From contig DWUU01000058.1 in the NCBI GenBank assembly GCA_019120575.1, forward strand, positions 1 through 39,752: a DNA stretch of 39,752 bases, given 5' to 3'. The notes below the pieces were generated by a model, which saw only the letters and a list, made by a program, of their open reading frames with translations, was not told where the DNA came from and made no database searches. This document shows positions 34,866 to 35,557 of this stretch, in pieces (position 1 is the stretch's first letter; the number at the start of each line of letters is the position of its first letter). The stretch comes from Candidatus Mediterraneibacter quadrami. GTDB lineage: Bacteria > Bacillota > Clostridia > Lachnospirales > Lachnospiraceae. The position numbers and the translations under genes are program-made.

Positions 34866-34894
34866 AAAAAAGACTAAAACTCATATGTCTTAGC
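34866..34894 (-). terminator. Terminator of the Glu-CAT-Asp-Leu tRNA array
   Basis: On the minus strand CTAAGAC (34893-34887) pairs with GTTTTAG (34880-34874, one G-T), then TCTTTTTT. It lies just after tRNA-Leu. Confidence 0.8.
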
Positions 34895-34905
34895 CTTTCA
34901 GAGAA

Positions 34906-34991
34906 TGCCGCAGGCCGGGGTCGAACCGGCACGGGTATTACTACCCACGGGATTTTAAGTCCCGGGCGTCTGCCAATTCCGCCACTGCGGC
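34906..34991 (-). tRNA. tRNA-Leu (TAA)
   Basis: An 86-nt class II tRNA with acceptor GCCGCAG/CTGCGGC, anticodon stem CGGGA/TCCCG around CTTAAAA (anticodon TAA) and a long variable arm. CCA is not encoded. It is the last gene of the array. Confidence 0.95.
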
Positions 34992-35029
34992 AGTTCTTAA
35001 ATTGTACCCGCAGCAACCTGCTGCGGAAA

Positions 35030-35103
35030 CGACCCAGAAGAGACTCGAACTCTCGACCTCCGCCGTGACAGGGCGGCGCTCTAACCAACTGAGCCACTGG
35101 GCC
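35030..35103 (-). tRNA. tRNA-Asp (GTC)
   Basis: The acceptor GGCCCAG pairs with CTGGGTC, and the anticodon stem CCGCC/GGCGG encloses CTGTCAC, giving GTC. It is followed by 38 nt and then tRNA-Leu, and preceded by the repeat at 35111-35331. Confidence 0.95.
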
Positions 35104-35110
35104 TCGTTAC

Positions 35111-35331
35111 GAGCACTTAGCGTCTGTCCTTCAGACGCTTACGTGCGATACATGCCGGCGCCCTTAGTGAGCGTCCGCGCGAGCTTAGTAGCCGGCGCGC
35201 TATGAGCACTTAGTGCCTGTCTTTTAGGCACTTATGTGCGATGCATGTCGCCGCTGTTAGCGAGGTACTTTCGAGCTTACAAGGCGACGCGTTATAAGCA
35301 CTTAGCGTCTGTCCTTCAGATTCTAAGTGCG
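35111..35331. repeat. Tandem ~92-bp hairpin repeat between tRNA genes, with compensatory changes
   Basis: Two full units (35111-35203, 35204-35295) and a truncated third (35296-35331) separate tRNA-Asp from tRNA(CAT). Each full unit has two stem-loops. The first stem is GCGTCTG/CAGACGC in unit 1 and GTGCCTG/TAGGCAC in unit 2. The second is GCCGGC/GCCGGC in unit 1 and GTCGCC/GGCGAC in unit 2. The differences are paired and keep base pairing. Unit 3 keeps only the first hairpin (GCACTTAG/CTAAGTGC outer stem). No reading frame fits. I do not recognise the element. Confidence 0.75.
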
Positions 35332-35333
35332 AA

Positions 35334-35408
35334 TGGACCTTCGGGGACTCGAACCCAGGACCGACCGGTTATGAGCCGGTTGCTCTAACCAACTGAGCTA
35401 AAGGTCCG
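35334..35408 (-). tRNA. tRNA with CAT anticodon (elongator Met or Ile2)
   Basis: The acceptor GGACCTT pairs with AAGGTCC, and the anticodon stem ACCGG/CCGGT encloses CTCATAA, giving CAT. It lacks initiator features. Distinguishing elongator Met from the lysidine-modified Ile2 form needs identity-element scoring. Confidence 0.9.
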
Positions 35409-35414
35409 CGAAAT

Positions 35415-35485
35415 GACCCCGACGGGAATCGAACCCGTGTTACCGCCGTGAAAGGGCGATGTCTTAACCGCTTGACCACGGGGCC
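35415..35485 (-). tRNA. tRNA-Glu (TTC)
   Basis: The acceptor GGCCCCG pairs with CGGGGTC (one G-T), and the anticodon stem TCGCC/GGCGG encloses CTTTCAC, giving TTC. It is promoter-proximal in the array. End positions may be off by one base. Confidence 0.93.
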
Positions 35486-35498
35486 ATAATACATAAAA

Positions 35499-35529
35499 TA
35501 TAAGCCGCCGTCTTTAACGGCGACTTATA
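35499..35529 (-). terminator. Terminator of the glp operon, overlapping the tRNA promoter
   Basis: TATAAGCCGCCG (35499-35510) and CGGCGACTTATA (35518-35529) form a 12-bp stem with one G-T pair. On the minus strand TTTTATG follows. The stem's first arm overlaps the -10 box of the tRNA promoter, so transcripts starting there lack the 5' arm and should not terminate. Confidence 0.8.
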
Positions 35530-35557
35530 TCATACCATAGGACTTGTATTTTTGCAA
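35529..35557 (-). promoter_or_regulatory. Promoter of the Glu-CAT-Asp-Leu tRNA array
   Basis: On the minus strand TTGCAA (35557-35552), a 17-nt spacer and TATGAT (35534-35529). It sits between the end of the glp operon and tRNA-Glu. Confidence 0.75.

Follow-up and report, generated by a model that had tools for sequence, protein, structure and literature searches.

REPs are described, in parts of two articles, as short imperfect palindromes that are dispersed and intergenic and can form hairpins in DNA or RNA, and CGTC REPs are said there to seem without a dedicated transposase (PMC3733652, PMC3116915). The GTAG/CGTC tag by which REP superfamilies are defined here is taken from sections of PMC3733652, an article whose main text mentions neither Clostridium nor Firmicutes nor Lachnospiraceae. 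BOX of pneumococcus, boxA-boxB(n)-boxC, is presented in portions of PMC3049150 as a composite, likely mobile element with variable tandem middle modules and a predicted fold when transcribed. Correia/NEMIS, ERIC and YPAL are, according to passages of PMC2229807, mobile hairpin repeats of 100–200 bp that are co-transcribed with genes; there, NEMIS RNA is proposed to be cut by RNase III and the effect of ERIC on RNA stability is orientation-dependent.

The hairpin array analysed here, from Candidatus Mediterraneibacter quadrami, belongs to a family of short, imperfect, dispersed and intergenic palindromes and is in these respects like REPs and REPINs. It differs from them in that its hairpins form direct two-hairpin tandem units, in that no tag was seen and no association with the REP-associated tyrosine transposase (RAYT) was found, and in lying mostly sense before genes and, among the genomes sampled, in one family only. 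Like BOX, it is a composite of variable tandem modules, but its arrays end in the same module, A (A-B-A-B-A), a distinction drawn from the description of BOX rather than from its sequence. From transcribed MITEs, which it resembles as a probably mobile and probably co-transcribed hairpin repeat, it is set apart by a BA unit with no terminal inverted repeat seen by eye and no clear target duplication, and by its fixed distance from tRNA 5′ ends and Shine–Dalgarno (SD) sequences. A long dispersed palindrome (∼150 nt) of the same genus (L066–L077, L080, L081, L012 (G000:C34:27602), L034, L035 and L039) has the same TAAG...CTAAGTG hairpin core as A, but there the core is enclosed by a large inverted repeat, and no tRNA gene lies in the loci of the copies examined. 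By eye, the arms of this palindrome differ between the copies of different genomes yet look complementary; it has many equal-scoring matches in G002, G004, G007 and G020, and one such palindrome lies ∼320 nt from a Clostridiales-1 RNA (L071:1368–1535; Rfam, 135 bits). The A and B hairpin family itself appears to be undescribed, with no entry in Rfam 15 and no description found by PMC text searches. We propose, with moderate confidence and from sequence comparison, that the array consists of tandem copies of a mobile, non-coding, MITE/REP-like unit family of Lachnospiraceae whose pairing is kept as DNA.

The array between tRNA-Met and tRNA-Asp

The window, that is, the whole stretch of 39,752 nucleotides that was analysed, corresponds to contig C17 in a draft genome of 2.19 Mb. 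The spacer between its tRNA-Met and tRNA-Asp genes (35104–35333) is an A-B-A-B-A array of two related hairpin types, in which two direct-repeat units of 92–93 bp and a third partial copy occupy 35105–35331 on the minus strand. An earlier note had described two full units of ∼92 bp and a truncated third; the two units stand, but the third, A3, comprises an A hairpin of full length, with no further B. The array is immediately preceded by tRNA-Met(cat) (35334–35407) and immediately followed by tRNA-Asp(gtc) (35030–35103), both on the minus strand within a tRNA cluster Glu-Met-[array]-Asp-Leu (34905–35486) delimited by tRNA calls and terminator-like sites. Since minus-strand terminator-like sites occur only outside the cluster, at 34868–34899 and 35497–35531, the array is probably co-transcribed with the tRNAs, and the earlier placement of it in the primary tRNA transcript is probably right. 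The sole inverted pair in the region (34899–34910/35578–35589) lies outside the array.

All modules are given on the minus strand. Hairpin A1 (35113–35146) consists of GCAC, a bulged G, an A.A mismatch, a variable stem, a purine-rich loop and GTGC, a structure counted on 125 copies. It is followed by the 3′ tail of the array, TCGTAACGA (35104–35112), which ends exactly at the 5′ end of tRNA-Asp; the commonest form of this tail in the family is TCATANNNA. The covariance model R1, built from the seven A hairpins of the genome with A1 among its sequences, matches A1 at 35111–35147 (E 2.7e-14), A2 (35206–35239) at 35204–35240 (E 1.1e-12) and A3 (35298–35330) at 35296–35331 (E 4.4e-10). The variable stem of A2 is altered on both sides relative to A1, and the outer stems of B1 (35154–35196) and B2 (35247–35288) are GCCGGC/GCCGGC and GTCGCC/GGCGAC, so the complementary substitutions between units quoted previously are present. 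In A3 the 5′ outer arm has been perfected to GCACTTAG: all 8 nt are complementary to the outer 3′ arm, leaving neither the bulged G nor the A.A mismatch that other copies usually have, and two inner positions no longer pair. B2 is identical to the B of the tRNA-Cys locus (C32) at 39 of 45 positions and to its neighbour B1 at 32 of 46, and because it is closer to the former, the array looks like a mosaic.

On both strands the predicted fold of the array region is better than that of every one of 200 dinucleotide shuffles (z −5.09 and −5.02). Taken alone as single-stranded DNA, the B hairpins have an unremarkable predicted stability (z 0.17 to −1.19), and the support for them is comparative. Rfam 15 gave no match to the array above the gathering score, and in an E-value search the sole overlap was STnc250 (E 1.3, far below the cut-off); with no Rfam match, a known RNA family was rejected as the identity of the element.

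Covariation and the level at which pairing is kept

Read on the transcribed strand, A commonly takes the form CATGN-ATC-GCAC-(G)-TAAG-N5-ANANNAC-N5-CTAAGTGC-TCATA-N′-NNA, with the bulged G and the A.A mismatch, and the flanks found most often are CATGNATC and TCATANNNA. B, a related hairpin, shares the TAAG...CTAA core and has a covarying outer stem of greater length (127 units counted), and in L038 the outer stem of an A is topped, by eye, by a B-like part. For the seven A hairpins of the genome, none of 500 shuffles reached the covariation score, 41 reached the count of pairs changed on both sides (3) and 396 the pair-type count. Across 125 distinct aligned A copies, those fitting a fixed-length pattern, 98.0% of cells are paired and seven pairs have changed on both sides; the covariation score is 0.315 against 0.105 when shuffled (0/500), and column slides of 1–3 give at most 0.060. 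Since the pattern fixed TAA, AGTG and parts of the flanks, the invariance of those letters proves nothing. The N5 stem was free in the pattern, and all four Watson–Crick types occur at one of its pairs (A-U 35, C-G 33, U-A 26, G-C 24, G.U 1, other 6). The outer pair N:N′ is Watson–Crick in 146 of 149 copies, with no G.U, and in 48 of 48 copies that a rough rule scored as being without an upstream B. The covariation proposed in the earlier note from the few units of the window is therefore strong over many copies, as is looked for in a structured cis-regulatory RNA.

Were a fold of the sense RNA under selection, one-sided changes would be expected to yield an excess of G.U over A.C on the transcribed strand. 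In the upper stems of A (226 distinct copies, 1130 cells) there are 10 G.U, 26 A.C and 21 other mismatches. The B units (n=127, 762 cells), with arms paired by best match, have 18 G.U, 24 A.C and 56 other; as 56 of 762 cells are neither Watson–Crick, G.U nor A.C, this automatic pairing of B is noisy. The elements combined give 28 G.U to 50 A.C, so G.U is not tolerated over A.C on the transcribed strand as would be looked for in a structured RNA. The acceptor and T stems of 116 distinct tRNAs at the same loci, a control in which one acceptor was skipped, stems were picked by pairing-favouring rules and G.U pairs common by descent are included, give 84 G.U to 6 A.C. The Fisher p value for element versus tRNA is 5e-16, or 7e-11 without the loop-adjacent A pair, both inflated by related copies, which are not independent. 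Because the exact pattern itself had fixed the bulge form and some loop letters, the element counts were redone without the loci that it fetched; G.U:A.C is 13:14 outside the exact-pattern loci and 15:36 within them, with a G.U excess in neither.

We read this absence of a G.U preference in one-sided changes, unlike the tRNA stems, as pairing kept at the level of DNA and not by folding of the sense RNA. The basal pairs of A (columns 16–36; 125 copies), with 19 sense G.U cells and 7 unpaired cells, run against this reading, although these counts are biased in that the pattern allowed change on only some sides. The result also bears on the main alternative to a mobile element, namely a cis-acting RNA in which a factor such as an RNase III-like enzyme would bind or cut the hairpin in the transcript, and the 5′ ends of tRNA, 23S or mRNA would thereby be set off or insulated from the RNA upstream. 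The lack of G.U preference speaks against such an RNA, while the recurrence of loop and internal-loop letters in the copies found by covariance model speaks for it; the invariance of these letters in the pattern-derived copies is partly fixed by the pattern.

A perfected outer palindrome is found at two loci, one of them A3 of the window, and is a mark of arm copying. Outside the exact-pattern loci there are 70 imperfect copies to the 2 perfected loci, from which the bulge and mismatch are probably needed by the copies that spread; in all loci the figures are 188 and 2, a count in which the exact pattern favours the imperfect form.

Distribution, placement and empty sites

In the genome itself, R1 has seven matches at E≤2.7e-6 at four loci, which are its seven source copies, and one weak extra match (E 0.16); the array is thus not the only place at which the hairpin occurs, as the earlier note had allowed that it might be. 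The genomes with a match number 28 of 61 at E≤0.1, every one of the same genus, and 25 of 200 among Lachnospiraceae (one genome per genus) at E≤1e-3, with 1 to 33 matches each. At E≤1e-4 there were matches in 6 of 146 genomes of the order and 2 of 199 of the phylum, all in the same family and none outside Lachnospiraceae in either sample; the own genome is counted in the genus, family, order and phylum figures. These genus, family, order and phylum searches used stricter filters, so the absences are soft. An exact-pattern search returned at least 119 stretches. Among the 80 listed, the named genera are all ones that we take to be Lachnospiraceae, and the rest are Lachnospiraceae, Clostridium, Clostridiales, Eubacteriales or Clostridia assemblies without a genus name; gut genera carrying the element include, among the matches listed, Mediterraneibacter and Hungatella. 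A phage-borne element was rejected, with 0 exact-pattern matches in viral contigs.

Clustering at tRNA genes, which had been suggested as a check, was found: 37 of 46 scanned genus loci hold tRNA genes. Copies in the genus precede tRNA-Asp, tRNA-Cys and tRNA-Thr, and others lie inside T-box leaders. All six T-box candidates among eight loci compared with Rfam match the T-box model with 50.9–70.0 bits (E 9e-9 to 1e-13), below its gathering score of 93. A-type or A-B-A insertions in T-box leaders were noted in L003/L011, L022, L025 (by eye), L045, L047, L064 and L065, which by eye read as metG leaders, and the leaders apparently tolerate them. In L018, by eye, tandem tRNA-like fragments (∼1540–1690) stand before tRNA-Thr, downstream of an A hairpin. 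Outside the genus, copies stand before tRNA-Asn, tRNA-Leu, many mRNAs and the L6 gene (L038; L103 by eye). In L104 an A hairpin ends at the distance of a 4-nt tail before position 1493, the start of the 23S match; the genes of the rRNA operon there (L104:1494–2098) run 16S-5S-23S, and a B-A stretch immediately precedes the 23S match.

An automatic rule sorted the 99 exact copies (80 listed loci) into 42 that lie ≤60 nt ahead of an open frame, 10 ahead of a tRNA, 12 in arrays and 35 elsewhere, some of these 35 being array members or T-box copies. Among the matches listed, the distance from TCATA to the tRNA is 4 nt in 9 of 10 tRNA cases (the exception, Trp, is at 25 nt), and that to GGAGG is likewise 4 nt in 22 of 42 open-frame cases; an SD-like sequence is present in 33 of the 42 and absent from nine, so some of the called open frames are doubtful. 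Of 83 collapsed arrays, 42 lie ≤60 nt before a sense start and 5 ≤100 nt from the start of an upstream antisense gene, and among the 73 with genes called on both sides both genes are sense in 48, both antisense in 7, the downstream gene alone sense in 12 and the upstream gene alone in 6. The sense bias of 48:7 has a p value of 1.3e-8, for arrays that are not all independent. This orientation, the 4-nt tail before tRNA and GGAGG with its equal at the L104 23S, and a promoter-like −10 box that ends 2 nt before the hairpin match at the tRNA-Cys of L046 all favour a cis-acting RNA. Against it are the 35 of 99 copies that the automatic rule did not place directly before a gene and the absence of an obvious common theme among the targets: 20 downstream proteins had no obvious common function, two of them being hydrogenase-related, and 2 of 10 had no NCBIfam match at 1e-20 and 1 of 10 no Pfam match at 1e-10.

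Two other accounts of placement were tried. GG as an insertion target was rejected by eye, since copies that are not before genes mostly lack GG. Orientation set by the replication fork is not favoured by GC skew, a weak test: third-position skew on the element strand is positive at 55 of 77 loci when sense genes are scored and at 34 of 61 when antisense genes are, and it is negative for several sense copies before genes (L155, L156, L172, L208 and L230).

Otherwise matching sites with and without the unit were found. L184 and L230 have flanks that are 96% and 91% identical, and L184 only has one BA unit between the stop codon and the SD; L172/L272 (argG) and L156/L271 (HydF) have a similar one-sided presence at lower identity. 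Flanking duplications, which the earlier note had listed as a check, were not clear in these three comparisons, with a possible TAA in L184 only, and gain of the unit appears more likely than loss at these sites. The element is thus multi-copy, with occupied and empty sites among relatives as in MITEs, and its place and length indicate that it is non-coding.

In the genus loci examined the Met-Asp spacer is 2–4 nt long in G030, G583, G020 and G034 and holds A, BA, ABA or ABABA elsewhere. By eye, the spacers of G005, G008, G016, G028, G029, G574 and G589 hold other single-hairpin-like sequences instead of the element, as if a hairpin spacer itself were favoured there. These seemingly unrelated hairpins count for a cis-acting RNA; counting against it, the element is missing from the same spacer in relatives, was not found in 175 of 200 family genomes at the threshold used, and has differing Met-Asp tails in some of the genus (G007, G012, G013 and G581). 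Besides this spacer, sites before adk (L183, L194 and L210) and before L6 (L038 and, by eye, L103) are occupied in several organisms, which suggests long retention. In 30 genus loci no full A was seen by eye in the spacers before adk, which are too diverged to place a border. By eye, the adk spacers of L345, L354, L366 and L369 hold a GCACGTAAGTGC mini-palindrome that resembles a collapsed A, and another hairpin-like stretch is common to many; a collapsed A of this kind (GCACGTAAGTGC) is found in L013.

Origin of the array and alternative explanations

The DNA-level pairing, the presence or absence of whole units and the likeness of B2 to the B of the tRNA-Cys locus lead us to file the array under mobile MITE/REP-like families. 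The unit would be a miniature B-A of ∼92–98 bp, two imperfect hairpins in direct order. To judge from occupied and empty sites, units would enter intergenic spacers whole, without a clear target duplication. Recombination or slippage between A repeats would subsequently lengthen and shorten the arrays, as the series of copy numbers suggests, and the arrays may take up units from other loci, as B2 indicates. The hairpin may matter, or be repaired, as DNA, which would maintain the covariation, and a single-stranded DNA hairpin may be used in mobility, in template switching between the arms, or in both. Sense copies in 5′ leaders would survive by acting as innocuous spacers, each a hairpin whose short unpaired tail leads up to a tRNA, 23S or SD. 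No mobilising enzyme was found, the REP transposase having been tested without association, and the sense bias and the fixed 4-nt distance are left unexplained by plain transposition. Of the two readings offered in the earlier note, the REP/MITE-like dispersed element has gained from the many sites, the presence or absence of whole units and the mosaic, whereas an RNA structure that guides tRNA processing is weakened by the absence of a G.U preference and by the spacers of relatives, which are 2–4 nt long or hold hairpins that by eye are unrelated. We retain an RNA-processing role as the main rival because the orientation and the spacing to tRNA, 23S and SD are so regular, and judge a cis-acting RNA element unlikely but worth serious consideration.

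Insertion by way of transcription is a tentative idea that we hold to be improbable. The unit would be received as single-stranded DNA by the displaced sense strand of a bubble or R-loop, or be joined as RNA to a processed 5′ end and copied back; if true, this would give the sense bias, the fixed join before tRNA, 23S and SD, the DNA-level constraint on the hairpin and the lack of a target duplication.

An ancestral, immobile spacer hairpin, lost in many species and covarying by template switching alone, seems to us quite improbable. It would account for the sites occupied in several organisms, and the perfected palindromes at two loci and the collapsed A of L013 do indicate arm copying and slippage. 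It is opposed by the one-unit difference at the near-identical L184/L230 site, by up to 33 matches in one genome, by differing B types at one site and the match of B2 to another locus, and by the bulge and mismatch, which template switching should erase, yet which persist in the 70 imperfect copies against 2 perfected loci.

Improbable too, and already disfavoured, is a REP/REPIN moved by a RAYT: the hairpins are short and imperfect with a bulge and mismatch and the genome has one RAYT-like gene, but membership among REPs fails because there is no RAYT association and the array copies are direct repeats, not inverted doublets. RAYT frequency is alike in element-positive and element-negative genomes of the family (5/25 versus 36/175, the visible entries indicating the same 200 genomes) and in the 37 genus genomes seen in both searches (19/28 versus 5/9), so that the co-occurrence with a REP-type transposase sought in the earlier note did not emerge. 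Element-positive genomes without a RAYT-like gene are G035, G012, G019, G005 and G009, and at E≤1e-3 no Y1 match was found in G117 or G062, both of which bear copies. The RAYT-like gene of the genome, P0001, matches NF047646 with E 5.6e-21 and 74.9 bits against a cut-off of 80, and no A-type hairpin lies within the 5.5 kb around it. Beside this single-copy gene (L286:2004–2771, G000:C47) are two frames (names by eye), one of them like glycyl-tRNA synthetase, and the neighbourhood in G002 and G020 is similar. In 30 loci around Y1/RAYT genes (114,937 bases) there is no full-length A, the sole match being a 15-nt partial one (E 2.6), and no GTAG or CGTC tag was seen by eye at the element ends. 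A RAYT/IS200 partner is thus unsupported by genome association or neighbourhood.

On the reading that we prefer, a mobile unit paired as DNA, strong covariation can mislead: all Watson–Crick types are present, yet the G.U/A.C strand test indicates DNA hairpins, an outcome that bears on covariation-based searches for RNA. The rule of orientation and spacing makes the mechanism a testable question. In its host genera, the element is the stretch just before tRNA, rRNA, ribosomal protein and metabolic genes.
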